This document shows, one piece after another, positions 6,973-62,705 of a stretch of 64,000 nucleotides of DNA. The notes beneath the pieces are model-generated. The model made no database searches. It was not told the origin of the DNA and worked only from the letters and a program-made list of their open reading frames with translations. The stretch comes from Tachypleus tridentatus (taxonomy: Eukaryota > Arthropoda > Merostomata > Xiphosura > Limulidae), in NCBI RefSeq assembly GCF_004210375.1, contig NC_134829.1, positions 23,452,034-23,516,033 on the forward strand, in the 5' to 3' direction. Both the position numbers and the translations under genes were made by a program. Position 1 is the stretch's first letter, and every line of letters starts with the position of its first letter.

Positions 6973-9282
6973 GCCTGAAACAGTGGTTCTTAACCTTGTT
7001 AAGTTTCGTACTTGCATTCACTGAAACCTTCATAATTGGAAAAATAAAATATGATTTTTTCAAATTCAAAACATAAGTAAATATTTTATTAGTGCACAAA
7101 ATGAACCTTGCATCAGTTACACACAATATCACTGTGTTCAAAGAACAAAACCAACAAAACATGAATTTCACACAAAAACATAACTCAATGAATACTTACT
7201 GCAAATCAATGTGACTTTTGCTGTTGCCTTTCAGAGACAAGTTCAGAAATACGCAGCTTCACCTTAACAAGTGCCACTCTCATATCATTTTTGCAACAAA
7301 GTCTGTTCCTTTTCTTCTTTTTTTTATGTCTGCCATCCTCAAAAAGGATTGCTCGCAAAGGTATGTTGTAACAAATGGTATGAGTATCTGAAGAGCTTTC
7401 TTAGCAATAAGAGGGTATGCTACGATTTGGTGACACCAAAATGTTAAGAGCGTTGTTGTTCTGAAAAGTTGCTGTTGAACCTGGCTCTGCTGAAGTTCAA
7501 TGATTTTGTTGAGGTATTCATCATTTACATCTGCTGTCGCAACACTAAACGTGAGCGGCTGTCTCACCCATACTGGACATGACTCTCTGGTGGGGAAGTA
7601 TCCGTCGAGAGACTTTGCAAGCTCATCTAAGTGCATGACAATTACTTGCTTCACTTCCCCAGGTACAGAAATGTCTCCGATTTCAGACACATCTTCGATC
7701 CTACTTACACAATCGTCCAGCAGGGAAAAGTTTGTGATGTTATCATTCTCTGTTTGTCGTTTCCATAATGGTAGCTTTTTTGAAAAGCCTTCAGGTTATC
7801 TTCTGCTTCGATGATGTTGACTCCACTGCCCTGCATTTGTTGATTGAGAGCATTGAAGATATTGGCCATGTACGCCAAAATGAGAATCAACTCAGATTTT
7901 TCGAAGCAATCTGCATGACAATGTTGGTGCTCTCACAAAAATAGGGCTAATTCCACACACATGGCAAAAACACGATTCAGTACCTTTCCCCGGGATAACC
8001 ACTGAACGTTAGAATGGTACAGAAGTACCTCAAATTTAGAGCCCATTACATTACACAGATCTGAAGATGCGGTGCTTCAGGGCACTATTTTGCACAAAGT
8101 TCACACATTCCACAACAATTTTTAATACTTCTGCCAGTTTTGAAGGCAAGGTTTTTGTTGCCAATGCATGTCTGTGCAGGACACAGTGCATTACAATGAT
8201 GTGTGGTGCATCAGCTTTCACCAGCGCACCAAAACCAGAGTTTCGTCCCAGCATGACTGGAGCTCTGTCTGAACAAACTGCAGAAACCATATCCCACAAA
8301 GATCGTTGACTCTGAAGAAGTCATCCACAAGTTTCTTCATGTCGGCTGCCTTAGTTGTTGTTGTAAGAGGCTTACAAAATAAAAAATCTTTTATCTCGTC
8401 ATTTTTCACATAGCGCATGAATACAACAAGCTGGCTTAGAATGGAAATGTCGGTGGTCTTGTCGAGTTGAAGACTGAATTTTGCTGGGCTTGAAATCAGG
8501 TCTGCAACTACTTGAGCCAAAATGTCATCGCTCATGTCATCTATTCTGCTGCTGATGGTGTCATTTGAAAGAGGAATTTGGGATAACTTATTTTCAGCAG
8601 CTTTTCCCAGCATGATATTCACCATCTTCAACGTAGCTGGTTTTACGAGTGCTTCACCAATGGTGTGTGGTTTGCCCTGCTTTGCGATCAAGTACACAAC
8701 TTCGTACGATGTTGTGAGGATCGGTTTGTCGATGAGTACAAAGCAGAGAACAGACGAAGTAGTCTTTTCATCGAACCTGGCTCTCTTTACCTTCAATTCA
8801 GCAAGTGTTGTGTTCTTGTATTTCCCATCTCCATGCAGCTTTAGGGAGTGATCTCTTAGTTTTGCCAGTGCTAGACTAGAATTGCTCAACTTGGCATTGC
8901 AAATCATGCATTGAGGATGCTGACTCCCATCATGTTCCATTATACACGTGAATCCATACTGTACGTATTCGCCCAACCACTTTCTGTTTTTGCTCGACAA
9001 AGTTAGTATGAAGGGACTGAAAGTTTAGGAAAAAACAACACAAATGACGCACGATTACTACAGTCACAAGTCGACTGCTAATCGCACAAAGTTCCCTGCA
9101 GCACAGATTAGCCAAATGATGTGACGTGATCAGCTGCAGCCAATGATGACCAAGTAGAGCATGACATCATGAATCATATGAGTGGGGTGAACGGAACAGA
9201 GACAGACACAGTGTGTGTGTCTTGACCTCTGCCGAACCCCTGGGGTTCGATTGAACCCAGGTAAAGAACCATTGGCCTAAAA
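6973..9282 (-). mobile_element. hAT-superfamily DNA transposon with TIRs and 8-bp target duplication
   Basis: The element proper is 6981-9274. Its left end reads CAGTGGTTCTTAACCTTGTT and the right end, read from the minus strand, CAATGGTTCTTTACCTGGG, which form imperfect terminal inverted repeats of the hAT/Charlie kind. It is flanked by GCCTGAAA at 6973-6980 and GCCTAAAA at 9275-9282, an 8-bp target duplication with one mismatch, the length expected for hAT. Between the ends lies a broken transposase on the minus strand. The 2.3-kb length fits a nearly full-length autonomous copy that has died by point mutation and frameshift. Confidence 0.85.
7280..9000 (-). pseudogene. hAT transposase remnant (BED finger to hATC domain), frameshifted
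   Basis: The reading frame starts at ATG 9000. The first 235 or so codons carry a BED-type zinc finger near residue 30 (CMIC, then H and H about 20-25 residues later) and the block 'FSLQLDKTTDIS' typical of ZBED/SCAND3-like hAT transposases. The frame breaks near 8300; it resumes in another frame at 8299-8051 (VCSDRAPVMLGRNSGF), again at 7890-7705, and ends in 7690-7280 with 'ILIPFVTTYLCEQSFLRMA', the C-terminal hAT dimerisation domain. At least three frame changes show it is not functional. It would have cut and pasted its own element; here it is a fossil. Open frames on the plus strand across it are antisense shadows. Confidence 0.85.
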
Positions 9283-9310: not shown

Positions 9311-9530
9311 TTGTTTGTATGTTTGTTTTGAATTTTCAAGCAAAGCTATGTGAAGGCTACCTGAGCTAGCCATCCCCAATTTACCAGTGTAAAACTAGAG
9401 GGAAAGCACTATTCATTACCATCCACTAGGCTACTCTTTTACCAATAAATATTGGGATTGATCATCACATCATAACACTCTCACAGGTGAAAGAGCAGTC
9501 GCCCTAATCACTTGGCTATGCCAGACCGTC
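9311..9530 (-). repeat. SINE1 copy (tRNA-derived), minus, internally shortened
   Basis: The 3' tail starts with 'tttgtttgtatgtttg', followed by the conserved body 'aaagctatgtgaaggctacc', and it ends in the tRNA-like head 'cttggctatgccagacc'. The tRNA B-box part is missing, so this copy has an internal deletion. It sits 30 bp outside the hAT right end. Confidence 0.7.
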
Positions 9531-10624: not shown

Positions 10625-13600
10625 CTGTTGGAAAACAATGATACATTATTAACTTATAAAAAAAAAGAGAACTACATAAGCATAAAACTATCAATTAGTA
10701 AACTAATGCAAGTAATCTGTCAGATTTTCTTAAACCTGAAAACTTAGGAGTTGTTCTAGAAATCTTTCTTTTTCTAAATATATTTATTGTTTCAACTGTT
10801 CCTCTGAGATTTTAATAATTAAAATGACATACTCAAGAGAGACGAAGTTCCCAACACACACAGTAAAAGAGGCAAGTTAGGCTTGAGATCTAAGTAACAA
10901 ACAGATAATGCAGTAGTAAATGTAAACTGTAGACTTATTTCTCGCAACATATTTTTTTGATACAGTTAGGTAAAACAGTTAAACTTCACAGCCAAATATT
11001 AAATGATGTTCACACAGTTTACTGAATTTAAAACTGTAGATTAAAATAATCATATCACTATCGAAAAAAACAAGTAAAAGAAACTTGGGTTTTATTTCTT
11101 CTTTTGTACATACTGGATAGACAGAATATTACCTCATTACATCTCATTCCACATGCCCTTAGGCATGCTATGAGTGCACCTTCTGTCTACCTGGGTATAA
11201 ACAAAAAATTCATTTATTTTGGGATAAATTCAACACTTATACTAATGTTACTTAAGACTATATGCAATATATTTATTACCATTTAAAAATCTTTATTATG
11301 TAAATAAATGATATGAATAACAAATTAAGTCATCATACAAAAATGATGTGAGAAGCTTATAATGGATTTAACTCAAAAAAATCTATCTGAATGGGATCAG
11401 GTTTTGCAAATGTGTTTTTATGTACTGAGAAGTCTGGAACAATAAACATTTGATTTTGATATTTGGACAAAGAATATTAAAATTTCCTTACTTAAAAATG
11501 TTTTGTTTAGAAAAATTAGTCACCTTTCCTCTCAATAACAGGCAGGCAGTAGTTAGCTTGATCCAGCTTCCACTGGGCCACACGGATCTGATAATATTGA
11601 CCACAGCCAGTCTCTCTCAAAATTATAGGAAAATTATTACTGCCTTATGGATTGTTGTGAACTCTCCATAAAATGTGGAAGAACAGTAAAGGGGAGCAAA
11701 CTGAGAGATCAATAACAGTAAAGGACTGACTAGGTGCAAGAAAATAAGTATAAGAACCAGTATTGGAAAGAAAAGGATTGTGATCAGAGAGCATACGCTC
11801 TATGGAGTGACCCTTCCCATCAATATCAGTACATTTCCACAGGGGATTATGTCCATTAAAGTCCCCCAGGATTAAAAAGGGAGATGGCAACTGTTCAATG
11901 AGAGAATCAAGGTCTGATTGATCATATGTCTCTCCAGGTGACAGGTAGAGAGAACAAACAGTGATGGTATGACCCAAGAAAACATGGATGGCTACTGCCT
12001 CCAAGGGTGTGTCGAGTGGCAAAGACAGGGTGGGCACGTGTTGATCAACCAACAGTGCCACCCCTCCATGTACTCGACCATCACACAACCTGTCATTTCT
12101 GTACAAAGAAAACTGATGAAAGTGACTGTATTGGTAGGTTTCAGAAATGTTTCCTGCAAGGAAACATACAGGATGGTAGGAAACAATCAGTGCTTTGATG
12201 TCATCCAAATTAAATGTAAACCTCGACAGTTCCATTGTATCAAGGTGGCCATTTTTATTTATGTGGAGGTGAATTGGGTGGAGAGAGCCCTTCTGTTTTC
12301 GACCACTTCTTTTTTCTTTATTTGAGGGAGATCTGCGAGCCTCCATGGATACTGCTCTGGGTTGATTGGGCAAATCTTTGTCGTTCGAAGAGGATTACAG
12401 CAACTGAGGACATGAAAGAATGATCATTTTGCATCTTGGAGTGGGAGAAAAAGATGTACCTGAGGAAATGCCCATACCCAGAACCAAAGGAAGTGGATCT
12501 TGGGGTTTGCTAAAGTGAATGTTACAGACAGAGATGGGTGTTGACATTGATTCATCAACTTTTTTAACAATGGAGGTCAAAAGACTTTTCATATAGTTTG
12601 AAATTAGTCTTTTGGAGGCATAGAAAGATCCGTCTGCATTCCTACCATAGTAGTGCTCATTACAGTGGCAAGGACTCACGACAGGATGTCTTCAAATGAC
12701 TGAACCGCTGACACTGGAAACATCCAAGAGGGTTTGAAATGTATGGCCATACCTTGTAATTGAGATAAACTGCCTTGATGGTGGCAGGCAGATGCAGTGA
12801 TGTAAGTGTTAAAATGAGGACACTGGTCGGCATCATAATTCCATCTTTGAGAGTGGAGATACGCCTCACTGCAGAAACTCCTTAGGTGGAAAAACAAGCA
12901 AAAATCTGACTCAGGAATGTTCTTCAAACCCCTCTCAATAATAACTCCTCATCACAAATTCAAAGTAGTGTGACGCATAACCTTAATGGGTATATTCTCA
13001 ATCGCCTTTGAATGTAAGAAGAATTCACTGTGTTGAGATGTAGATGTTTCCACCAATATGTCACCAAAATTAAAGCTTCTTTACTGACTTTGGAGAGCCA
13101 GCAAGTTCCTCTAGTCCCTTCTAAATAAAAAAAGAAGACATTTGCCCTAAAGGTTTATCTGAAAGAGAATGTAGTATAAGAAAATGAAGTACAACAGTTG
13201 TTACAGATGTTAAAGATTGCTGCTCAAAATCTTCAATACATGGTCCATAGGACTGTTTTTTCACTATTTTATTTAAGTTTTTATTTGGAGGATCCATAAT
13301 AAAAAAAGAATGTTTCGGCACCCACTGATCCCACCCACCACGGAGTCCTATGAGGGGATATACTACAATGCCAAACAAGGATACTGCAGTAATCCCAGGG
13401 TTTTGTGAGAAATATACCCAAACACCAGCATCAGATATAACATCCACAACACTGCTGAGAACGTCCAACACTGGTACTTGGTTGACTCTAGCCCAAGTGG
13501 ACCAGCCAATTGACCCTAGGAGGGCCACCCCATGGCTGCCTGTCTACAGGAATTCAAGGCCAAAGTGGTGTGTTAGGGTCAGACCCCTTAACCACCAGGA

Positions 13601-22277: not shown

Positions 22278-22392
22278 TTTTTTTTCGAGCAAAGCCACAT
22301 TAGGTTAACCACTGTGCCCATTGCAGGGAATCGATCGCCGGATTTTAACATTGTTAGTCCATAGATGTATCGCTATCCAACCAAGGGACTTT
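22278..22392 (-). repeat. SINE2 copy, minus, diverged
   Basis: It matches the second tRNA-derived family (see 43635-43751) on the minus strand: 'gagcaaagccacatta' near the tail, then 'ggaatcgatcgccggatttt' where the family has its B-box and loop region. A T-run of about 12 sits at the tail side. Confidence 0.55.
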
Positions 22393-27361: not shown

Positions 27362-30300
27362 GTTAGTGATCATAGCCTTGGTTGTTTCATAAAATGTGCT
27401 TGAACAGTTTCAAGGTATTTTAATACTTACAGAAGGTTAGCCAACAACTTTAATCCTTTCACTGGTTAATTCATGGGTTAATTCATATTTTATTCATGAA
27501 CAGGGATGAAGCAATTAACATGTGTCCAATATTATGCATGAGATATGGTGAGTACATTCCAGTAGTGTCTGGGCAAAGAACTAGGAAGTGCTACTTTTAC
27601 AGTTTGTCAATGTTCCCATTGTCATTTCCAGTTGTTACATTATTCCAGCATGAACCATCTCCCTGGGTATCATCTGGTCCTCAGTTGTAGCAATATCCGT
27701 CAGTGAAGTCATGGTTTCTGGGTTAACGATAACTTTCTACATTTTCAGGAAGATACATAACCAATAACCAGCAAGACAACTCACCATATTTTTTTTGTGC
27801 TTAATGATTAGAATAGTAGGACAGGGAAACACAAATATAAATCTATGTAGGGTAAGGGTCATCTTAATTTTTTTTTTTTTAACAGGATAGTTAACATTTG
27901 GAAAGGGTTGCCTTCATATGTGGTGAAAGAAGTAAGTTTAAGAGAAAGCTTGATAAATATTTGAATCATGATGGTTGGCTTTATTTTTTTAAAGAGATCA
28001 TTTTAGTGGATGGAACTGCCTAGATTGACCAACAGGTCTCTTGTTGTCCTTAAATGTTAACATTCCAGTTGTACTAGAAGCTGTCATGGGTATCCGAGAA
28101 TGGTTTTGATTTGATTACGTTACTAGTTGTGAACTGAGCAGTTATAAATCTATGAATTTCTGCTACTTCTTGGATTGGGGGACTTCAGAACAATGTTAAA
28201 TTTGCCAGTTTAATCTGTAATTGTTGAGGAAAGATGTTTGGCCATTAAATTAATCATCTGGGATAGCACGAGTTAAACGTGGATGACGTGTCATATGGTG
28301 ATATGTATATTTGATAATAATATCAAAATATAAATAGGGATTTAACACATTGAAAATAGTGAAGTTTCAACCAAGATTTTTAAACCTAAAAAGTTTCAGC
28401 TTTTGAACTTCCTGAAAGACTTTTCAACCATAAAATGCGAGAGCTACTAGGGCTTTTCTCCACCATGGTTCTGTCTGCACTTTAGCTGTTGCCTTTATCA
28501 ACACAGACATGAATTTTATCAAACACGTGTAACAATTTTGATGCCTTGGGTGATAGTGGGGTTTTTATATTATTAAATTATTTTGTTTTGTTATGGAAAA
28601 ATTTCCTTTTCAAATATATCATACTTTTGTTCATGTTATTTTTAGTTTTTGTTTCATCCAAAAATTTATACATTTTAACTCTTAGAAATATTTATTTTGA
28701 ATTTTGCACAAAGCTACATGAGGTTTACCTGAGCTTCTTAGAAGTAAGACAAATCTTTTGCAATATGTGTGATACTTGTGACTATTTAATAACATAACTT
28801 ATTAGTAACCCCATGTGCACAGTGGGGGGCAAATTGTGCACGTTAAAACCTTGTACAGAGTCTTATTCAATATGTTAGGAATTTTATGTCAATTAACTTT
28901 AGTAGTTACCCTACCTTCTTATTTTATAACATTTTTTTTTAATGGAGAAAATACCTGATTTAACAAATGGGGATACATTTTAGATGTGTGTTTAGGAGGT
29001 CATAGATGTCATGCAAGTACAATTTGCAAACTATACGATGGACAAAATTGTTTTTATACTTCACATGATTATTGCATTGTGTTATGACTTGTCAGAATCT
29101 GAATTAGATTAACTTTATTATAAATCCAAAAGTGTGTACCATTTATCAGAGCTTAGATATACCAATTATTATTCTGTTAATTCATTCTTTGTTTGTTTTT
29201 TTTTAACATCCAAGCTAAGCACTCAGCAAAGACTTTAGGATTTTTATCAACAATACTCAACTTACAAGGTCAGAAAATTTGTTTGTTTTTGTTCTATACA
29301 GAAGGAGACAAGCTTTCATCCAGAACACCCAGTATTGGTCGTATCACTGGAAGTGCTAGCATTGAAACTTTAGTCCGAGTTGGAATAGAAAAAGAAAATG
29401 GCTTGTCTCCAGACTCCAAGGTGGTTGTACTTCATGACTTTACTCCTTGTGTTGATGATGAATTAGAAGTCAGAAGAGGTCAGGTTGTAAATGTACTTTA
29501 CCAGGAAAATGACTGGGTGTATGTAATAGCTGAGAACAGCCAGGAAGGCTTTATTCCACATTCTTACTGTGCTCCATATGGTACGCAACCAGCTGACTTA
29601 GCTCTAAATGTCAAACATAAGAAACTTCCAAGAAATGAGACTGAGCATGAACTTGACCAAACTTCTTCGAGAGGGACTCTCTCAGGTGACAGTGGCGGAC
29701 AGCATTCTGATGCAGAGAGTTTTGGTGGTGCACATCAAGTTAAAAAAGGCATAAGCAGTCTTGGACTGCAGAATTCACAGTCATCATCTCAAGTGTCCTT
29801 GCCCAATGTCCATCCATTTTTCAAAGATCCTGCAGGAAGGTTTATTGTGTTATATACATTCATAGCTAGGGATGAAAATGATGTGAGTGTTGAACGGGGT
29901 GAGCTTGTGACAGTTATGAATCGTGAAGATCCAGATTGGTTTTGGATAGTTCGTTCTGATGGTCAGGAAGGATTTGTGCCAAGTGCTTTTGTTTATCCTG
30001 CTGATGCAATTCAAGGTATTGTACTGAAGATACACTCTTCATATTATCAATGATAAACCTCTCTTCAACTTGAGTTTATATGCATTTTCAATTTATATAA
30101 ACATGATTCCTATATAGAAGTTTTCTGTTTTATACAAGCATGCATAGAATGGTACATTTTAGGATTTTATTAATTATTTTTAATAAATTCTTGTTTTAAT
30201 CGTATTTATTTGTATTATGTATATTGTGTTGAAACAAAATAACACTGTTGTAGATCCTCAATATTGAAGATGATTTAGACATAAAATATGTGGTCACATG

Positions 30301-34090: not shown

Positions 34091-36370
34091 ATTGAAAATG
34101 GTCCATGTCCACTGAAAAGATAGGCATACAGGCATATTTTGGGAGAGTTGAATATGATTAATGCTTTATGGTGGATGTATGAGCTCCACTGAGTTATCCT
34201 TTTTAAAATTAGATTGAAGTTTGAGTGATTCAAATTTTTGACAGGTGTAGTAAATATGTATTGATAAAAAAAAATTAAGAGTGGAAAATAATTGATGTTG
34301 AAAACAGGCCTAATAAATATATATACACACACACAGATATGAAGCAAAATGTAAGATGAATTTCAAGTGCAAACATTGGTTTTCAAAATCAGTCATAAAG
34401 TAAAAAGTGAAAATTAAGTGCAAAAGTTTGATTTTAATACAATTAAGAATTTTTATTTTCTGTGCCTTTTACAGGAACTTGTACATTTGACAGAATAAAA
34501 TCAAGATGCTACTAACATAAACCAAACACAGACAGTACACTGATAATAAAGTGAGAACAGAATTTAAAGTTTAATTCGTTTATATGTATTAAAAATGATC
34601 ATACAAAAATCTCCTGTTAATTTAAAATATTGATGAATTTTGAACAAAGCTACCTCAAGGCTATCTTCATTGATAACAGTGAATGAACAGATACATTTTT
34701 GTATATTCTGGGAGCTGAATATGGTGCATGGTGAAGGTATGCGCTATAATGAGTATCCTTGTAGTTGCTTAAGTTGTATCTAATATGTATTAGAAATGTG
34801 ATTACGAACGTATGACCACACCACTATCATTTGATTATAAAGGTATCTCCCTGTAACTGAATAAGCAAAACAAACTAAGTAATTTAAAATGCTTCAACAA
34901 TTTTTTCTCTCATAACAAATTTACTAAAAGAAACTTTTTTCACGTTGTTCTTGTGTGATGCTCTTATACTTCATACCACAAAAGTGTGTAGTGTTGCTTT
35001 GTTTGGGGGACGTATTTTAATGTAAATATTTGGAAGGTTAAGGTTTATTTTCAAGATACAGCTGTTTTAAATTTTTGAAGAAGTCATTAGTCAAAACATT
35101 GAAGAAAGGTAAAAATGTATTATGTCCAAAATTTAGTGTTTTTTTTGTAATGCAGTCCTAATACTTGGAAAAAATACAGAGTTAAAGTAGACAAGTTATC
35201 ATACAGTTATTCAGCTGTCTTATGCAGTAAATAAATGATTCAAACTTTGTTTCAAAATAAGAAAAACCTCAGTGAAGCAGAAGTATATATATATGTACTG
35301 TTTTATTTATGCTAAGTGCATATTCTGTATGGTATACATGAGAAATGATTTTAATGTCTGTCTTCAGCTGTAGTTAATAAGATGGAAATAATTTTCCATG
35401 TTATATAATTTACTACAGAACTGTTGAGCTTCTAACATATACTGATTGACAAGTCATTAATTTTTATTTATTAATGCTTTTGTAGTTTGTGTTTTTATAA
35501 ATGACTGAATCAAATTTGGTTTATAGAAATATGGTCTAGTATTTCATAACCATTTCATGTATTTTGTAAACATTTAAACAATAACATTCCACAATTGTGC
35601 CTTATATATATATTTTAGTGTTTTGTACAGTTGATATTTGTATTTACTTCTATGTTTTTATGTGGGAAGTTTTGGGAAAAGGGATAAATAAAAATTATAT
35701 TATAATTATTGTTTTATGTGTAGATATACTTATTTATATATCCAAACGTTTTGCACCAATGGAATTTGGTAGTTGGGATTATCTTCATATAATTTCATTA
35801 ATCATGTTTCATTTTATATACAAAGTTTTGACCTACTCAATTTTATATACCGTGTGTGTGTATGTGCAGTCGTTAAAACTAAATTTATTTTGTTATAGGT
35901 AAAGATTTGTGCAAGGAACAAAAATTATTGAAATTTTGTGAAACAGTAGAATGATTAAATATTTTAACTCATTACACTATGCATGACTATTAATTACAAA
36001 TCCAAATCTATCAACTACAAATTTTGTGTAGTTAATTTTAATTTGGACAGCTTTTCAAACTATAAAAAGAAGTACAATTTTTTACTTGAAATAATATGAT
36101 TTACAACAGTAAAAATATTGTTTTATTATATATAATGTAGTTACCATTTCAAAAAACTTCTCAAACACAAGATACAGATTTCACATGCAGTACTTTTACA
36201 TAATAACCTATAGTATACGTTACTTGAGAAGTATGTTTTTAGATTTCAAGGTAAAAGGTTAAATGCTTTGATCTCACTCAAGTCAAAATGGACAAATATT
36301 TTAGTTTATTTATTAATGTTCAATCAAGAGCAATTGAACTGTATGAATCTGAAATGAAATGGGACATATT
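34091..36370. other. AT-rich intergenic DNA, nothing recognised
   Basis: Contains only short chance frames (34081-34347 minus, 35597-35902 plus) and small AT or CA runs. Confidence 0.4.
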
Positions 36371-43135: not shown

Positions 43136-43634
43136 TTTGTTGATTTTACCAAGTGAGCATAGTTTTGCGGCCAACAATAATAAAACCCAAGATACAAGAA
43201 ACATACCATATGTTCCCGACATTAGCGAAAAAATAACCAACATTTGGGAAAAAGTTACAATAAAACACAACATTCTATTAAACACCAAATGTATTCAAAC
43301 ACTAGGTACAAAACTACATTGACAGAAACAACACCAACCTAATTTATAAAATACAATGCAACAACTGCTACGACTTCTATATTGGAGAAACAAGGAGAAA
43401 AATGGAAATTATATTCAAAGAATATAAAAAAACACCTTCACACGTTTTTGAACACTGCAAATTAAATAAACACAACATAACCATAAAAACACCCAGATAT
43501 TAAGTAGGGAAACAAATATAAACAAACGCAAAATCAAAAAAGCCCTACTTATACATAAACTAAAGCCAAAATTAAACCAATATAAAGGAACACCTTTGTA
43601 CCTATACTAATTAATAACCTCGCCCGGCATGGCC

Positions 43635-43751
43635 AGCGCCCCGCTAGTACAGCGGTAAGTCTACGGGTTTACAACGCTAAAATCAGGGGTTCGATTCCCC
43701 TCGGTAGGCTCAGCAGATGGCCCGAGGTGGCTTTGCTATAAGAAAAACACA
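43635..43751 (+). repeat. SINE2 copy inserted in the head of a SINE1
   Basis: This is the reference copy of the second family: 'ccccgctagtacagcggtaa' (A-box region), 'aggggttcgattcccc' (B-box), then 'gctcagcagatggcccg' and 'tggctttgctataag'. It is flanked by CCCGGCATGGCCA on the left (43622 on) and again on the right (43754 on), which is the SINE1 head duplicated as a target site. Confidence 0.75.
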
Positions 43752-43753
43752 AA

Positions 43754-44026
43754 CCCGGCATGGCCAAGCGTGTTAAGGCGTGTGAGTCGTAATCTGAGGG
43801 TCGTGAGTTCGCATCCCCGTCGCGCCAAACATGCCCCCCTTTCAGCCGTGGGGCGTTTAATGTTACGGTCAGTCCCACTATTCGTTGGTAAAAGAGTAGC
43901 CCAAGAGTTGGCGGTGGGTGGTGATGACTAGTTGCTTTCCCTCTAATCTTACACTGCTAAATTAGGGACGGCTAGCACAGATAGCCCTCGAGTAGCTTTG
44001 TGCGAAATTCAAAACCAAACAAACAA
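43754..44026 (+). repeat. SINE1 copy, plus
   Basis: Head 'cccggcatggccaagcgtgt', anticodon-like 'gagtcgtaatc', B-box 'gagttcgcatcccc', body 'ctaaattagggacggctag' and tail 'gaaattcaaaacc'. It lies in the Penelope-like copy: 'ataacct' precedes the SINE block (43613) and recurs after it (44030), a likely target duplication. Confidence 0.85.
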
Positions 44027-44212
44027 TTCATAACCTTACATCAACTTGAAACGCCGTTTATACTCTCGTCCCTAAGACATGCATCCGTCAACGGTCACAT
44101 TCAAATTCTCTCTTTCTTAAACTGAAGATGACTTAGGAACGTCAAACCGTTGTTCTCTCCTTATCAATAACAGTGTTAATACCCATAACAGCCGTTCTGC
44201 GATACATTTTTG

Positions 44213-44334
44213 CCCCACGCTAGTACAGCGGTATGTCTCCGGATTTACAACCCTAAAGTCAGGGGTTCTATTCAGTGGGCTCAGCAGATAGCCCGATGTG
44301 GCTTTGCTATAAGCAAACATATACACACACTACA
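44213..44334 (+). repeat. SINE2 copy, plus
   Basis: 'ccacgctagtacagcggtat', 'caggggttctattc', 'gggctcagcagatagcccg' and 'tggctttgctataagc' follow the family in order. Confidence 0.75.
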
Positions 44335-51204: not shown

Positions 51205-51320
51205 TTGTCTATTTAAGAGCAAAGCCACATTGAGCTATCTGCTGTGTCCACCGTGGGAAGTTGAACCCCTAGATTTTAGTACTAAAAGTCTGCGAAGTTA
51301 CCGCTGACCAATCGGGGGAG
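51205..51320 (-). repeat. SINE2 copy, minus
   Basis: 'gagcaaagccacattgagc', 'gaagttgaacccctagat' and 'aagttaccgctgaccaatc' follow the family on the minus strand. Confidence 0.6.
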
Positions 51321-54700: not shown

Positions 54701-57700
54701 AATTACCGTTTATATATTACTTTAAATACTTGCTACAGCCTAAAATACTGTTAATGCATTATTCTCGCTATTGTTGCATTAACATAGTTAAAAAAAAAAA
54801 ACCGTTTGAACTACTAATAATGTTTAGTATTGAATGTGTTATATTAAAACGATTTTGGTGTCTCATTATGTCCTTTCAGTCTATGTCGCCACATCTTCTC
54901 ATGCCTTATTTGAAGGATGTGCATTTTGAAATTAACCATGCAGTGTAGTATCCATTGCAAATGTTTTGTCATAAAGTTATCATGTTCAAAACACATTTCT
55001 CCTTCCCATAAACCAACTATATAGGAGGACAACGGTTTTCCGATGCCTGTTTACGATGTTATCCTACAGAAATCTGTATGGAATTGCATCTGTTGACTTG
55101 GTCTGAATGTATTCTTACGAAATAGCATGAATGTCCGGCTTGTTCTCCAGCTATTTGAGGTATGCGACCATTGAACTGGTATGTTTGGAAGTAACTTGTG
55201 TCGTTTTTCCAGACGGGGATCCATCTTGATAATGTTTAGTAGTGTTGCTTGAAACATTTGAACATCTTTTGTCACTGACATTTGTGTTTGTGAATTCTTA
55301 TCTGTTACCATAGGCCACACTTTGCTTAATGTGGCTTGTGTAAGAATTATTGAAAGGCTCTTCAGAATGGTCTTTGGTGTTCAAACCCATCCACATTTCT
55401 TTGTTTTCCATTAAATTGTTTGTTTGTTCATAACACTACGTAACATAAATTTTGCTCCTGGTGTTATTTCTGAATTGCTCATGTTGTAAAAGAACCGAAA
55501 ATGGCCATTATTCCCTTCAAACTTTGCTTTTGTGACCTGGATAATTAAATTTAGAAATTAACCTATTTTCTATGTAAAAACGGGCAAATTTGCACATTTG
55601 TATTTACATAAGGTCTGAATAAAACAATGTATGAATTAAGATTTACATGTATTTATACTAAAGTTATACAAAAATGAACAAAAATGTTTAGAAGTGAGTA
55701 GTTTTTCGAAATTTGTGACTGTAATGTAAATCACTTTCACGTATCAGCCCCCAAATATAGTCTCCCATTATGTTTTCGTTAAAAGCAAAGTTTGAAGAGA
55801 AAAATAGGTCTTTTCCATTTACTTTAGGCATAAGCAATTGGGAAATAACACTTTCTGCCAAGGGACAAGTAAAGTAAAACTTTTCTTATGTAGTGTAAAC
55901 AAACATAAAGCTACACAATGGGATATTTGTGCTCTGCCTACCACAAGTATCAAAACCTGGTTTCTACCATTGTAAGTCCAAAGACATACTGCTGTGCCAC
56001 TTGAGGACTCATTTTCCATTAACTGTAAGGGATATATCCATCTTGAACATTCTAAATATGGATCTAAGCTGATATTTATGATTTAAGTATTTGAATATTT
56101 TGAGTCAGAAAGAGTTGTTACAAACTATTCTAAAAGGCATTAATTTTAGGTGGGATCAAGTTACCTAGAAATGTCAAACAATGTCAAAATGTTGTTCTGA
56201 AAAAAGCCATTCCACTGCAACTTTATTTCGGTTGTGCTAATTTTTATACAAAAATCGTTTTAATACTATGTACTTAACATTCTGAATTATTGTAGTTATT
56301 ATCAGTGGTCAAGAATAGAAAGGAGGGTGTTCGGTACTATTTGGTATTGCTGTATTCTAGCTTTAACACCAGTTGTCTAGAATAGAAAAGGACATGAATT
56401 TCTACTAATACATTATTCTGACTGGAAACATGAATGTTACCAAATGTTGTGATGTTGTACCACACTAACTACCCAAAAATAATGGATTTAATTTAAAAGT
56501 ATATATTATTCAAACACATCCTATTAATGAAACCGAAATATTGCACACTACCTTATATAATTGAGGAACGAGGCAAATGGTGTGACACCTATACCACCAG
56601 CCACACATATACTGACCCTATGGTGAAGGACACCTTCTGAAGGACTGCAAAAAGGCCCATCAATGTAAAGTCTGTGGAAGAATGTGAAACAGTTTCAGTT
56701 TTAGCAAACCAACGTTAAATGTAAAGAAGAATATAAAATAGTTCCAAATACAATTTAACACAAAGCTTATGGAATAATGTAAAAGTAACTTTAAGCAAAC
56801 CCACGAAAAGTCTGATTCTAAATATATTGAGCTTTGTTGAGGGTTTGTGCTGTTCAAAGGAAACTTTATGGAGAAAAACTGTGCAGTTCATACCTGTTCA
56901 CGAACCTTCTCCTTTTAAATGAATTATGTATTAGTATATTAGTGTTACTGTCCCTTTGTATGAGGTTACTAATGTCGTATTAAAATATTGTGTCCATCTA
57001 CATAGGATTACGTACTAGCGTACCTTGTCGCCTTGCATGGCACTTTGGATACGGAAGTATGTTCTAATTGGTCGACTGACAGTGACGTTCTGCTGCCTAA
57101 CAGTTGGACTCTCAGGTTATCTGTGAGGGAAAAAATGGTAATTAAAATAACATTAAATGATTTAGGTTTTCTACCAAGACTTATAGATCGAAGCAACATA
57201 AAGATATTTATGTTTGGTTTAAGAATCTAAGTATAGTTTTCATGCTTGAAAGGAAAAAGTGCATTGAAATGTTGCAGCACATAAAATTTGCGACGTAATG
57301 CATTTTGTCACTTCAAGTATTTTCACCGACGTTTTTAATTTACTAATGTTCAGGAGTTACCAACAATTATTTATAGTACAGTAATAAGGCAAATAAAATG
57401 AATTTACATCGTATTAAGTGTTTGTTTGTTTTTGAATTTCGCACAAAGCTACACGAGGAATATCGGCGCTACCTGTTCCTAATTTAGCAGTGTAAGACTA
57501 GAGGGAAGGCAGCTTGTCACCACCACCCACCGCCAACTCTCTACCAGCGAATAGTGGGACTGATCGTCAAGTTGTTACACCCCCACGGCTGGGAGAGCGA
57601 GTATGTTTAGCGTAGCGGAGATTTGAACTCGCGACCCTCGGATTACGAACCCAGCGCTCTAGCCAACTGGCCCTTATCGTATTAACGTTTTGTTAATGTG

Positions 57701-60700
57701 TATGCCTTCTGTAGGCAAATAATTCCTATTCCAGTCCAAACAGCAGTGTAGTTAATAAGCAGATGAGAGTATACGCTCTTTTAAACTTACAAAAGTTAAT
57801 CAAATCGTGACATAAATTTTGTATTTCAAAAATGCTTCTAAACATAAAATAAAATACAAATTGCCAAATTGTGTGTATTCAACGATATATATGAGCTAAC
57901 GTTATGGCAAAAGTTAATCCAAACGTAATATCATTTTGAGATATTTGATTAGTGCACATATTAAAAGAGGAAGACGTGGACAGATGAATTTAAAATTAAC
58001 TTCGTTAATGAGACGACTGACGTAATTGACGTATTCATATAAATATTATGTTCCCCCCGGGTTGCTCAGCAGCAAGCTTGGGACTTATAATGTTAAAAAT
58101 ATGATTTTGACAGGACAGACAACAAAGTCATTGTGCAGGTTTCTGCTTAATGAAGAACTAAGCAGCTGAACAGAGTGCCATAAATATATTACTTATCACA
58201 ATTCTTCAAACCCCCTCCCCTCAAACGAAGGCATTCTAGAAATTAGCATAGGTTTGTTTAGTGAAAGGTAAAATTATTCAGCCATAATGTTTGGTTTTTG
58301 TTTGTTTATTGTTATTAAGAACAAAATTAGACAATGAGTTATTTATGCTCCGACAGAGGCCCGGCATGGCCAAGCGTGTTAAGGCATGCGACTCGTAATC
58401 CGAAGGTTGCGGATTCGAATACCCATCGCACCAAACATGCTCTTCCTTTCAGCCGTGGGGGCATTATAATGTGACGGTATTTGCTATTAAAAGAGTAGCC
58501 CAAGAGTTGGCGGTGGTTGGTAAAGACTAGCTGCCTTCCCTCTAGTTTTACACTACTAAATAAGGGATGGCTAGCACAGATAGCCCTCGAGTAGCTTTGT
58601 GCGAATTCAAAAAACAAACAAACAGTGCTCCGACAACAGTGGGTATTGAAACCAAGACTTACAGCCAGACTCCAGGGGAAAGGGGGAAGTGCAAAGCTGG
58701 TCATAATATTAAAACACAGTACAAACTGTGTGGCTTTATTTATCAATTAAGAATTCAAACGAAAAATAAATAGGAACACTTCTCTAGATTTTGTTGTTAA
58801 ACAGACATAAAAGAAAGAAAATATAAACTCACTGATGTTTTTCTTATATAAGATACAAAGGGCCGGTATCGCCAGGTGGTTTAAGTCACTCGACTCGCAA
58901 TCCGAGGATTGCAGGTTCGAATTCCCATGAGGGCGTTAAAAAGTGACGGTCAATCCCACTATTCGTTGATAAAAGAGTAGCCCAAGAGTTGGCGGTGGGT
59001 GGTGATGACTAGCTGCCTTCTCTCTAGTCTTACACTGCTAAATTAGGGACGGCTAGCGCAGATAGCCCTCGTGTGTAGCTTTGCGCAAAATTCAAAAAAC
59101 GAACAAACAAAGAATCAAACGATACACAGGTAACGGAACACAGACCAACTTTATATATCCTAAATCATTGTTAAAAAAATACTTACGTGACCAATCTCCG
59201 TTTGTTCTGAGATGAAGTGTAAACTTGGCCTGATCTGCTGTCGCGCACTAAGTGAATAAAACAAAAAAAGTAAAAGGACTTTGATTGGCTAATGCAGAAA
59301 AAAAAAAGTTGCCTTTCCCGTCGAAAATTACCAGGACCTTTGTTTGCGTGATAACGTTATGTGGTGAGTCTTTCACAAGTGGCATTTAGAGTTCTTTCCT
59401 TAACTATCTAGTTTTTCTTATAATACTATGTTTCAATAACGTGTTCGTTTATTGTTAAAACAAACAGAAATGCAAGTGATTCAACTGTAATATTAAGGGA
59501 AGAGCCAAGTTTGTTTTTGGTATTTCTTTTCATGTCAAAAATAATGAGCCCACGTCAATTTAGGAAGCCTTAACTGAAGCCAGGCTGATGATACCAACTC
59601 GACGTATGGCGTCATTTCCTGAGACAGCCTCAACTTAATGAAATTAAAGAATAGGCTAAATGATCATCATGTTTTTAAATGTTTAAGTCACATTACAAAC
59701 ATAAAAACGAAACTAAAATAAAACGTATAAAAGCCTTCGACATTGTTTAACCTTTTTCTTTTTATTTAAATAAATCAATATATTTGTCGCCTACGCGGTT
59801 AACTATATATTTATTTCTTCTTATAAAGCCTCAATGTATTGTCATGCCAAAGTCACAAAGGAAATTCTCGTTGGACTCGGTGGTAATATCTCAACAATAA
59901 TTTTTCTTGTTAAGTAATAGCTTTTATGGTTCAAACTGTATGATTGTTCACTGAAGATATAAACAAAATTCGATAAGAAGAAATACTTTGAACGATTTAT
60001 ACGTTATTATTATTCTAGAACGTTCTAAGAGTTTGGGATAAAACAAAACTGAAAGTCTCCTATGAGCTATTTTGTAAAATTATTTTATTTGATATTTATA
60101 TAAAACTTTATCAAATAAACATTTGCTTACCGAAGTGACTGTGAACGGATGCCATTCCAATAACGACACTTTGGGACAATTGAGAAGGACATACTAAAGA
60201 AAATAAATCATATACGTGGATATTATTAACAACTCCAGTTTCAAAATGCTCACATTTTGTTCAAACTTTTAAGTGAAGGATTCGCAATAATTCTAACACA
60301 GAGCTTAATGATATCAACTTGCCATGCTTTTGCAAACTGATTATTACTAAGACACTGTTTCGCGTGGGCCTAATCATAATTATCATACACTTTTTTTGTG
60401 TCCTAAATTTTCAAATGTTACCCACAGCTTTTACATGTCAGCGTCAGTACGTGCCCCTTATTTTCCCTAAACTGATCCTTATCAAGAAATGACTTTTTTT
60501 TTTTTTCTAACACTGCTCCCATCTCTTGAGGGTTTATAAAACCAGAACGAGATTCAATCTGTGTTGTGGGCACAACGCAGATGACTCACTGTGCATCTGT
60601 GCAGCTTTTCAAAACTGGCCATTAACATTTATCATTATTCATTATGTTACACCAAACAGATGGATGTCATGTAACTGTGTATCCTGATTGCATAATCAGA

Positions 60701-62705
60701 TCATAACCATGAAGTGATGACTTCTGCTTTCCCAAACTGATCATTACCGTGTTTTCTCAAACCGATTATATTAGTAACTGTCTTTCAGAAGCAGAGTGGC
60801 ACAGTGGGAGCGTGCTGGGCCCATAACCCAGAGGTCCGGATCGAAACCACGCTCTGCTATATTCTAGCCCGGCATGGCCAGGTGTGTAAAGCATTCGACT
60901 GGTAATCTGATGGTCGCGGGTTCGAATCCCGGTCGCACCAAACATACTCGCCCTTTCAGCCGTGGGAGCATTATAATGTGACAGTCATTTCCACTATTCG
61001 TTGGTAAAAGAGTTGGCGGTGGGTGGAGATGACTAGATGCCTTTCCTCTAGTCTTACACTGCTAAATTAGGGACGGCTAGCGCAGATAGCCCTCATGTAA
61101 CTTTGCGCGAAATTCAAACCAAACCAAACCAAACTGTCTTTTAATTTAACAAATTTAAAATATGCTGTTCACTGCTTACACGAATTTATATGGCCATACT
61201 GCAATTTTTTGTATAACTGACTAAATTACTTGCAAATAGATGTTTTCCGAATAGCCTGTGTTGCCTGGATAATACACACATAATGAATTAAACTACAGTT
61301 AATAACACTTAAACTAATTATCGCATTATTATGGATTACTTAACTTTGTGTTGATAAGTGTGCCATTCTTCATTGAAACAAAACTTGTCTGATCTGTTTC
61401 AAATAGACATATGGTAACATTTCTTTCACCATATTTAACACAAAGTGAATCATGTCAGTAGCGCTTATAAAACGGTTTACAGCATTGTCTTAAAAATAAT
61501 GGAAAATAGTATTAACTTGTCACTTTAACAGGAAAATTAAAGGGAAGTGTCACTTGCTACTTTAACGGAAAAGAAGGATGGAAAGCGTTGATTGTTAGTT
61601 TAATGGGAAGTGTCATATGCCACTTAAATGGGAAAGAAAGATAGGAAGTCTTACTTGTTTGTTTTAAATTTCACACAAAGCTACTCGAGGGCTGTCTGTG
61701 CTAGCTGTTCCTAATTTAGCAGTGTAAGACTAAAGGGAAGGCAGCTAGTCATCACCACCCACCGCCAACTCTTGGGCTACTCTTACCAACGAATAGTGGG
61801 ATTGACCGTCACATTATACGCCCCCACGGCTGAAAGGGCGAGAATATTTTGGCGACCCTCAGATTACGAGTCGCACGCCTAAACACGCTTGGCCATGCCG
61901 GGCCCCTTACTTGTTACTTCAATGGGAAGTTTCACATGCTACTTTAACGGGAAAGAAGGTGGAGGTATTACTTGTTACAAAAGTGGGAAGTGTCACATGC
62001 CACTTTAACGGGATAGAAAGACGGGAAATGTTACTTGCCATTTTAACGGAAAAGGAAGGTTTGGAGTGATAGTTATAAAAAGGACATTTGAGACCTCTGG
62101 TAACAATCGTTTGAACTAACCTGACCGGGCCGGAAGTATAACTTGTTTTTTGTCTCCAACGTTAACTCCAATACCGACGCTGGGGTGTTGTTCGTTGCTA
62201 CCACACCAGATGTTGATTTGCGACGTAACAATCTGTAGATGAAGTCTAAAACATAAACAACTAATCCGGAAATCACCCACTTCCATGTCTGAGAGAAAAG
62301 AAATAAAGAACGAAGCGTCGTATAAAAAAGTAGCACAAAGTTAAACATACTAATCTTCTCCTCTTTATATATCTTCGTTTTGTCAAAATGTAATTCTAAC
62401 ATCTCAGGTAAATGTATAACTTAGAAGCTTATAGAAAAGCAAAATAGTTTGTTCACTGTGGAACATATACACTCACACATGTTCTCAAAGAAAGTACCTT
62501 TTGGGTACTTAAGAGTTAATTAGTAAATCATCTACTTTTACCCACCTGCGTATTCTGAGGGATAAATTTAGGTTGAACAACACATACATCAAAATCTTCA
62601 TTCAGTTGACCTGCGTGGGTCGTTTTAGAGTCAATATGGGTTAGGTTGTCCATTCTACATCCAGGAATGTGATGGTCAATATTACTCTGTTCCTTCAGCA
62701 CCCCA
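51660..62705 (-). CDS. NOX4: NOX4-like NADPH oxidase, C-terminal ten exons (5' part off the window)
   Basis: Ten minus-strand exons with GT-AG introns and matching phases encode 360 residues plus a stop; human NOX4 is about 578, so roughly the last 60 percent is here. The first exon reads [15 protein letters not shown], the extracytosolic E-loop region that marks NOX4. Then come a membrane segment ([18 protein letters not shown]), the FAD motif HPFT (exon 60131-60193), the NADPH motifs [29 protein letters not shown] and CCGP, and the C-terminus VYRQESFS, matching the NOX4 ending. The family passes electrons from NADPH through FAD and two haems to oxygen, giving mainly hydrogen peroxide. The usual DGPFG reads DGPFC here. 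Haem-ligand helices lie upstream, off the window. Introns hold SINEs and a minisatellite. Nothing is broken. Confidence 0.93.
52345..52442 (-). CDS. NOX4: NOX4-like exon, GRPDW segment
   Basis: It runs from acceptor tttag to donor AGAGG|GTAAGT and reads [18 protein letters not shown], the conserved 'GRP.W' region of NOX enzymes. Confidence 0.9.
52450..53265 (-). other. NOX4-like intron, nothing else recognised
   Basis: AT-rich intron; the 52808-53002 frame has no domain. Confidence 0.6.
53273..53350 (-). CDS. NOX4: NOX4-like exon, 26 codons
   Basis: From ttacag to CAG|GTGAGA, phase 0 at both ends. It reads [19 protein letters not shown], which aligns with 'ENRPDYVNIQLYLSQ' of NOX4. Confidence 0.92.
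53593..53710 (-). CDS. NOX4: NOX4-like exon, LLWLCREIQ segment
   Basis: From tttcag to CAG|GTAAAA. One base completes arginine from the previous exon, then 39 codons include the NADPH-binding '[10 protein letters not shown]'. Confidence 0.92.
53935..54209 (-). repeat. SINE1 copy, minus, with target duplication
   Basis: Full-length copy in a NOX4 intron. CTATCAGT flanks both sides (53927-53934 and 54210-54217), followed on both sides by similar T-rich sequence. The head reads 'ccatctggccatgccggag' on the plus strand. Confidence 0.9.
54844..55320 (-). other. Unidentified coding-like segment in an intron, broken
   Basis: Two minus-strand frames (55320-55051, 89 codons; 55032-54844, 62 codons) have balanced amino-acid use and less AT than the intron. 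They read '[19 protein letters not shown]' and '[18 protein letters not shown]'. I match them to no family. A decayed transposon is the likely source. Confidence 0.35.
55895..55995 (-). repeat. Possible SINE2 remnant, minus
   Basis: 'acaaacataaagctacaca' at the tail side and 'catactgctgtgccacttg' at the head side are consistent with a tRNA-derived repeat, but the match is weak. Confidence 0.35.
56108..56245 (+). repeat. Dispersed repeat, copy B (partner at 33290-33425)
   Basis: See the entry at 33290: block order and spacing agree, with about one third of positions changed by eye. Confidence 0.5.
56552..56671 (-). CDS. NOX4: NOX4-like exon with the NADPH-binding glycine motif
   Basis: From ttccacag to ATAAG|GTAGTG. 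It reads [15 protein letters not shown] then [18 protein letters not shown], very close to NOX4 and less like NOX2. Confidence 0.95.
57024..57120 (-). CDS. NOX4: NOX4-like exon, variable insert region
   Basis: From cctcacag to ACAAG|GTACGC. The first two bases complete a histidine after GDWS; 31 codons follow. This region is variable between NOX4 orthologues, so phase is the main support. Confidence 0.82.
57418..57675 (-). repeat. SINE1 copy, minus, with 10-bp target duplication
   Basis: ATCGTATTAA flanks the element at 57408-57417 and 57676-57685. Head, body and T-rich tail are all present, so the copy is intact and fairly young. Confidence 0.92.
57690..58340 (-). other. NOX4-like intron, nothing else recognised
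   Basis: No coding block or named repeat is visible. Confidence 0.5.
58356..58625 (+). repeat. SINE1 copy, plus, with 10-bp target duplication
   Basis: TGCTCCGACA is at 58346-58355 and again at 58626-58635. The head reads 'gcccggcatggccaagcgtg' and the tail ends in (aac)n-like sequence. The minus-strand frame of 135 codons across it is an artefact of the repeat. Confidence 0.93.
58861..59115 (+). repeat. SINE1 copy, plus
   Basis: Head 'ggccggtatcgccaggtgg', body and tail are present. 'gatacaaag' before and 'gatacacag' shortly after may be a target duplication. Confidence 0.85.
59187..59247 (-). CDS. NOX4: NOX4-like exon, [13 protein letters not shown] segment
   Basis: From cacttag to TCAC|GTAAGT, 20 codons plus one base. 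It corresponds to the FAD-domain strand that follows HPFT in NOX4. Confidence 0.92.
59260..60120 (-). other. NOX4-like intron, nothing else recognised
   Basis: No repeat head or coding block is visible. Confidence 0.5.
60131..60193 (-). CDS. NOX4: NOX4-like exon with FAD-binding HPFT
   Basis: From ctttag to TCG|GTAAGC, exactly 21 codons: [10 protein letters not shown] then [15 protein letters not shown] contacts FAD in the ferredoxin-reductase fold. Confidence 0.95.
60488..60610 (-). repeat. Possible SINE2-like remnant, minus
   Basis: A T-run of about 15 followed by 'gagattcaatctgtgttgtg' and 'gatgactcactgtgc' suggests a tRNA-derived repeat, weakly. Confidence 0.35.
60790..60859 (+). tRNA. 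Initiator tRNA-Met-like sequence (CAT), probably a pseudogene
   Basis: The acceptor arms AGCAGAG / CTCTGCT pair perfectly with discriminator A. The anticodon arm is CTGGG-CCCATAA-CCCAG, with anticodon CAT. The T-loop is ATCGAAA, the eukaryotic initiator type. The total is 70 bases rather than 72: the 5' side of the T-stem keeps only CGG opposite CCACG, so two bases are missing there, and the D-stem has an A-C mismatch. It is therefore probably not a working gene. It sits inside a retroposed unit. Confidence 0.8.
60867..61131 (+). repeat. SINE1 part of the chimera, plus
   Basis: Head 'gcccggcatggccaggtgtg', B-box 'cgggttcgaatcccgg', body with a short deletion before 'gttggcggtgggtgg', and tail of (aaacc)n. 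The A- and B-boxes look intact. The head resembles tRNA-Thr(CGT), with 'ctggtaatc' in the anticodon loop position. Confidence 0.92.
61515..62065. repeat. Minisatellite, about 62-66 bp unit, interrupted by a SINE
   Basis: Units contain 'gggaagtgtcacatgccac' and 'tttaacgggaaagaa' in alternation, with about five copies (61535, 61605, 61925, 61985 and a partial one at 62035). They lie in a NOX4 intron, on both sides of the SINE at 61660-61906. Confidence 0.75.
61660..61906 (-). repeat. SINE1 copy, minus, inserted in the minisatellite
   Basis: TTACTTGTT flanks it at 61651-61659 and 61907-61915. The head reads 'gcttggccatgccgggcc' on the plus strand. Part of the head, including the B-box, is shortened. 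Confidence 0.9.
62121..62288 (-). CDS. NOX4: NOX4-like exon, last membrane segment and start of FAD domain
   Basis: From tctctcag to CAG|GTTAGT, exactly 56 codons. [20 protein letters not shown] is the final transmembrane helix, and it ends YFRPGQ, the start of the FAD-binding barrel. Confidence 0.93.
62546..62705 (-). CDS. NOX4: NOX4-like exon, E-loop region (first exon in the window)
   Basis: From atttaacag to CAG|GTGGGT; the first base completes a codon from an exon beyond the window. It reads [16 protein letters not shown], aligned with the NOX4 extracytosolic loop, and ends [13 protein letters not shown]. Confidence 0.9.

Follow-up and report, generated by a model that had tools for sequence, protein, structure and literature searches.

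At one locus of the horseshoe crab Tachypleus tridentatus, a sequence resembling an initiator tRNA lies directly in front of a complete tRNA-headed SINE, and we sought to determine whether the two arrived separately or as a single insert. Joint insertion of a tRNA and a SINE is an accident of a recognized kind, one from which new mobile-element families can arise, and this locus cleanly captures the stage at which SINEs may acquire new tRNA heads. It also comes with internal controls, since sister copies of the SINE and a nested insertion occur in the same window (the whole 64,000-nucleotide stretch of DNA that was analysed, with a GC content of 33%). Our analysis indicates, with a probability that we put at roughly 0.88, that the initiator tRNA and the SINE were inserted as one unit, by a single retroposition of a composite cDNA.

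Anatomy of the composite insert

The insert is bounded by two copies of AACTGTCTTT, which form a perfect 10-base duplication around the tRNA and the SINE together (Table 1). The sequence-only reading, which had placed a 4-base leader, an initiator-tRNA-Met-like sequence and a SINE1 inside this repeat, thus described the anatomy correctly. Within 60700-61250, AACTGTCTTT is the only direct-repeat family reported at a minimum length of 9 bases, in a list that leaves out the 5-base tandem units of the tail itself. Copies of two different RNAs are fused inside one duplication, the arrangement of a bipartite chimeric retrogene. Of the 10 duplicated bases, three (AAC) could instead be assigned to the last CAAAC unit of the tail, and this overlap counts against a single retroposition; the other seven, TGTCTTT, are unambiguous.

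Table 1 Features of the composite insert and of related repeats in the window
Feature	Position	Strand	Evidence or remark
5' target-site duplication AACTGTCTTT	60776..60785	+	Direct-repeat search; P = 0.0008
Leader CAGA, 4 bases, gap between duplication and tRNA	60786..60789	+	
Copy of initiator tRNA-Met (70 nt), lacking 2 bases of the T arm and without a following CCA	60790..60859	+	Rfam RF00005, 35.9 bits; initiator hallmarks
Linker TATTCTA, 7 bases (tRNA 3' trailer and/or SINE leader)	60860..60866	+	Not CCA, without T run
Complete tRNA-headed SINE (SINE1) with CAAAC-repeat tail	60867..61131	+	Matches in the window, alignment, ARAGORN call of the head
3' target-site duplication AACTGTCTTT	61132..61141	+	Direct-repeat search
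TTTT in 3' flank, possible Pol III terminator	61139..61142	+	
Tandem repeat, 63-base unit, 2 copies	61537-61664		Adjoins SINE copy 61657-61903
SINE2, second tRNA-type SINE family	about 43636-43752, 44212-44317, 51218-51279, 22278-22374		

Initiator tRNAs are distinguished by a CAT anticodon, a GGG/CCC anticodon stem, an A1-U72 pair, and A54 and A60 in the T loop. The tRNA part of the insert displays each of these: CAT is flanked by GGG and CCC, the 7-bp acceptor stem is fully paired and includes A1-U72, and the T loop reads ATCGAAA, with A54 and A60 in place. As a sequence copy, it is thus an initiator tRNA-Met. It exceeds the Rfam gathering score of 29, and a search of the entire window with 4227 Rfam families gave no other match at E ≤ 0.01. 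A search limited to 1.2 kb gave three further matches, all under their gathering scores, namely the SINE head as a tRNA (21.0 bits) and, on the opposite strand, Plastid-ycf2 and snoU82P, the latter two of which are taken as chance. Aligned with an initiator sequence, the copy shows a 2-base gap in the T arm and differs at 6 of the 70 aligned bases, although part of this difference may be typical of the host. ARAGORN called no tRNA at 60790-60859, and the minimum-energy fold predicted for the copy is not a cloverleaf (a weak test); for these reasons we take it to be a copy and not a working gene, which would have an intact cloverleaf.

Of the internal promoter boxes, the tRNA supplies an A-box consensus (60797) and the SINE head a canonical B box (60919). 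In the B-box region of the tRNA itself, the sequence departs from the canonical pattern, as is normal for initiator tRNAs. TTTT is absent from the insert and occurs once just behind it; among seven other SINE copies checked, one has TTTT within 40 bases behind it. Despite the A-box consensus and this distribution of TTTT, the composite copy is most likely inert.

Elsewhere in the window, 12 places match the SINE1 of the chimera, with identities of 76-83%; the weakest is at 34666 (E = 0.047). Besides these, a 15-base piece of a SINE1 head at 43622 forms part of a split copy at 43754. ARAGORN calls the head of the chimera's SINE as tRNA-Thr. With this tRNA-like head, a body common to the other copies, a tail of short repeats and a target-site duplication, the element has the features of a tRNA SINE mobilized by a LINE, and searches of the literature on SINE superfamilies and on horseshoe crab SINEs yielded no family identity for it. 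The SINE part carries 24 substitutions in 263 positions relative to a leave-one-out consensus (0.091, gaps uncounted), the second lowest divergence among the ten copies compared (range 0.089-0.277). Judged by this consensus and by the initiator sequence, two crude yardsticks, the tRNA and SINE parts have diverged to a similar degree, in keeping with one date of insertion for both.

Copies of SINE1 and SINE2 (the latter at 43.7 and 44.2 kb) have a stretch of 25-26 alignment columns near the 3' end in common, and for each of the two SINE2 copies, none of 2000 shuffles was as good. This shared stretch suggests a common 3' recognition signal. Units related to the 63-base tandem repeat recur at 61911-62059, on the far side of the SINE copy at 61657-61903. 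Among the reading frames of the window, one at 11645-12373 (-) contains an endonuclease-reverse transcriptase domain (PF14529, E = 1.1e-13) and is probably a LINE fragment. Two others, at 7280-7690 (-) and 8218-9000 (-), gave no Pfam match at E ≤ 0.001 and resemble what we take to be pieces of a hAT-type transposase. The frame at 29193-30053 (+) contains two SH3 domains and has a tentative resemblance to Dlish of insects.

Duplication tests at the tRNA and at the SINE head

If the SINE had entered alone, its duplication would be expected next to its own head. Beside the 5' end of the tRNA, at a distance of 4 bases, all 10 of 10 bases match the 3' flank (P = 0.0008, 4000 random points); a separate test of the same match gave P = 0.00175 (20000 random points), the SINE head positions having been set by hand and shifted by up to 3 bases between the two tests. 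At the SINE head of the chimera, there is no duplication: the best match within 16 bases is 3 bases long (P = 0.99), and, apart from the 10-base repeat, exact matches of at least 6 bases within the 130-base flank are all 6 bases long and tail-like. The sequence-only reading had allowed that a better duplication directly around 60867-61131 would speak against it, and that 3-base match is the best to be found there.

The behavior of sister copies calibrates this result. Eight of the 12 other SINE copies have a recognizable head and were included in the test, leaving out those at 9496, 45287, 28735, and 34666. In six of the eight, a duplication of 8-12 bases with 0-1 mismatch stops 0-4 bases short of the head (P < 0.005 in every case, relative to random points), while the matches at the copies 49861 and 58863 do not reach significance (P = 0.24 and 0.08, respectively). 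One of the six positives, at 61903, is less secure, as it sits in tandem-repeat DNA that itself gives several 9-base matches; excluding it, the count becomes five of seven. The leaders of the six positive copies span 0-4 bases and vary in sequence. The leader CAGA of the chimera was accordingly rejected as proof of a pre-tRNA, since the sister copies carry leaders of the same kind.

Because two of the eight sister copies likewise lack a significant duplication, its absence at the SINE head is weak evidence when taken alone, and this is a point in favor of an account in two events, in which an initiator tRNA gene or pseudogene was resident, a SINE later landed 7 bases behind it, and the flanking repeat arose by chance. 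A 10-base match that is due to chance does exist in the 130-base flanks of the copy at 57672, but it lies 40 bases from the head of that copy; position therefore counts as much as length. In the chimera, the 10/10 repeat directly adjoins the tail of the SINE on one side and stands 4 bases from the tRNA on the other, a placement rarely matched by random points in either test, and the SINE head offers nothing comparable. On the strength of these duplication tests, we rejected a resident tRNA followed by a later SINE, which we consider very improbable.

A nested insertion in the same window

Two successive insertions leave a different trace, as can be seen at 43622-44024, where a SINE2 interrupts the head of a SINE1 copy. 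AATT(A/C)ATAACCT forms the outer duplication of this nest, and the inner SINE2 is flanked twice by CCCGGCATGGCCA, a 13-base internal duplication read by eye. The chimera at 60776-61141 contains no extra internal duplication like CCCGGCATGGCCA and is therefore unlike a nest of two insertions, an interpretation that we rejected by this contrast.

The same comparison bears on the reverse order of events, in which an initiator-tRNA retropseudogene arrived after the SINE and landed precisely at the boundary between that SINE and its 5' duplication. By eye, there is a weak likeness between CTTTC before the tRNA and TATTC after it that could be read in this way. The would-be duplication nevertheless amounts to at most 3-4 bases, the tRNA has no tail, and the nested SINE2, by contrast, has its clear 13-base duplication. 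Moreover, the tRNA would have had to strike a gap of 0-4 bases, the size seen in the sister copies. Without a usable duplication, a later tRNA insertion at the SINE junction was rejected, and we regard it, too, as very improbable.

Single-unit entry of the tRNA and the SINE thus rests on the duplication beside the tRNA, the lack of one at the SINE head, the behavior of the sister copies, and the absence of an internal duplication like that of the nest. The joint insertion put forward from the sequence alone is well supported by this combination.

Proposed mechanism of joint insertion

As with the sister copies, the insert has a duplication, tail repeats, and a complete 3' end that are compatible with target-primed reverse transcription by LINE machinery. 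We infer the participation of a LINE, the priming on the tail, and the step that joined the two parts. Putative LINE machinery would nick the target, and reverse transcription would be primed on the CAAAC-repeat tail of the SINE RNA. The SINE would be copied to its 5' end, after which copying would run on into the initiator-tRNA sequence, and closure of the 5' junction would then give rise to the 10-base duplication around the whole composite. The tRNA would be a passenger, joined at the level of either RNA or cDNA.

The linker that begins at 60860 shows neither CCA nor a run of T. In eukaryotes, CCA is added to tRNAs post-transcriptionally; its absence here argues against a mature tRNA as template, and the lack of a T run argues against the end of a full primary transcript. 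That the joint shows neither kind of tRNA 3' end counts against a single retroposition. A perfect duplication around an insertion that is 9% divergent is also slightly unexpected under it. We give about an even chance to a joining step in which the reverse transcriptase left the SINE RNA for a pre-tRNA that was either unprocessed or partly processed, and a chance somewhat short of even to one RNA that already contained both parts, either from a SINE just behind an initiator tRNA gene or from an existing dimeric element. The sequence-only reading had proposed that a joined RNA, formed by read-through or template switch, was reverse transcribed. Its joint insertion holds, and read-through and template switch would both fit. 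The mechanism is less novel than that reading suggested, as a template switch from a SINE RNA to a tRNA has already been proposed (PMC5729268).

Single retrocopy or dimeric family

The significance of the composite depends on its copy number. If unique, it is an ordinary chimeric retrocopy. If it exists in multiple copies, it would be a dimeric SINE headed by an initiator tRNA and would indicate that read-through or template switch onto a tRNA can give a working promoter. We consider it possible but doubtful that the locus founded, or belongs to, a dimeric SINE family whose transcription would rely on the promoter inside the initiator tRNA.

The same tentative standing applies to an already existing multi-copy dimeric family, whose master would consist of an initiator tRNA and a SINE transcribed from the tRNA promoter. 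This history is compatible with insertion as a single unit and differs from the single retroposition only in what came before. It would account for a nearly complete tRNA with an A-box consensus, in an insert that is free of TTTT and has one just downstream, and for a linker unlike the end of a mature or full pre-tRNA, as expected for parts that were already joined; the dimeric SINE Sbg9 provides a precedent in the excerpts of PMC9191728. Against it, the other 12 SINE-like places in the 64 kb all lack the initiator head, no second copy of the chimera occurs there, and the T arm of the tRNA is 2 bases short. Patterns for the SINE, the tRNA, or their junction had no matches in viral and prokaryotic DNA collections, where such an absence has little weight. 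A search of the literature by sequence likewise yielded no paper.

Among the literature matches listed for initiator-tRNA or dimeric SINEs, which consisted of titles and the beginnings of abstracts and included few subscription papers, none describes an initiator-tRNA head on a complete SINE. The sequence AGCAGAGTGG is present in initiator tRNAs. It is also contained in the printed sequence of AfuSINE2-7e, an Aspergillus SINE labeled tRNA/Met, with initiator or elongator unstated in the excerpts (PMC5063351). To judge from this sequence, the head of AfuSINE2-7e may be initiator-like, which counts against the novelty of the arrangement described here.

Comparison with known chimeric elements

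Known systems, as presented in excerpts of the respective papers, share parts of this architecture. Chimeras of tRNA and LINE-1 are described at 21 loci, with 9-19 bp duplications in all eight that their authors checked (PMC13174262). They resemble the present locus in the fusion of a tRNA to a retrotransposon, but mostly involve antisense tRNA halves, for which the authors suggest twin priming (PMC13174262), whereas the tRNA here is nearly full length, in sense orientation, and joined to a SINE. The dimeric SINE Sbg9 of Blattella likewise has two tandem units that move as one SINE; each of its halves (Sbg1 and Sbg8) is an established SINE in its own right, and several copies of Sbg9 exist (PMC9191728). 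In Magnaporthe, WEIRD-MgSINE and WEIRD-MgSINE-MGL are chimeric retrogenes explained by template switch, each with a copy of a non-coding RNA 5' of a SINE and one duplication around the whole (12 and 14 bp; PMC2104539). Their upstream part derives from another RNA and their SINE is 5'-truncated (PMC2104539), unlike the complete SINE of the present insert.

The closest precedent is PittSINE of suboscine birds, for which a switch of the reverse transcriptase from a tRNA-headed SINE RNA to a cellular tRNA has been proposed, with a chimera inside a duplication as the outcome (PMC5729268). PittSINE has CR1 as its partner and gave rise to a family (PMC5729268), whereas one copy is known here. In PittSINE, a tRNA-Asp replaces the old tRNA-Ile head (PMC5729268), while at the present locus, a nearly full-length initiator tRNA precedes a complete SINE.
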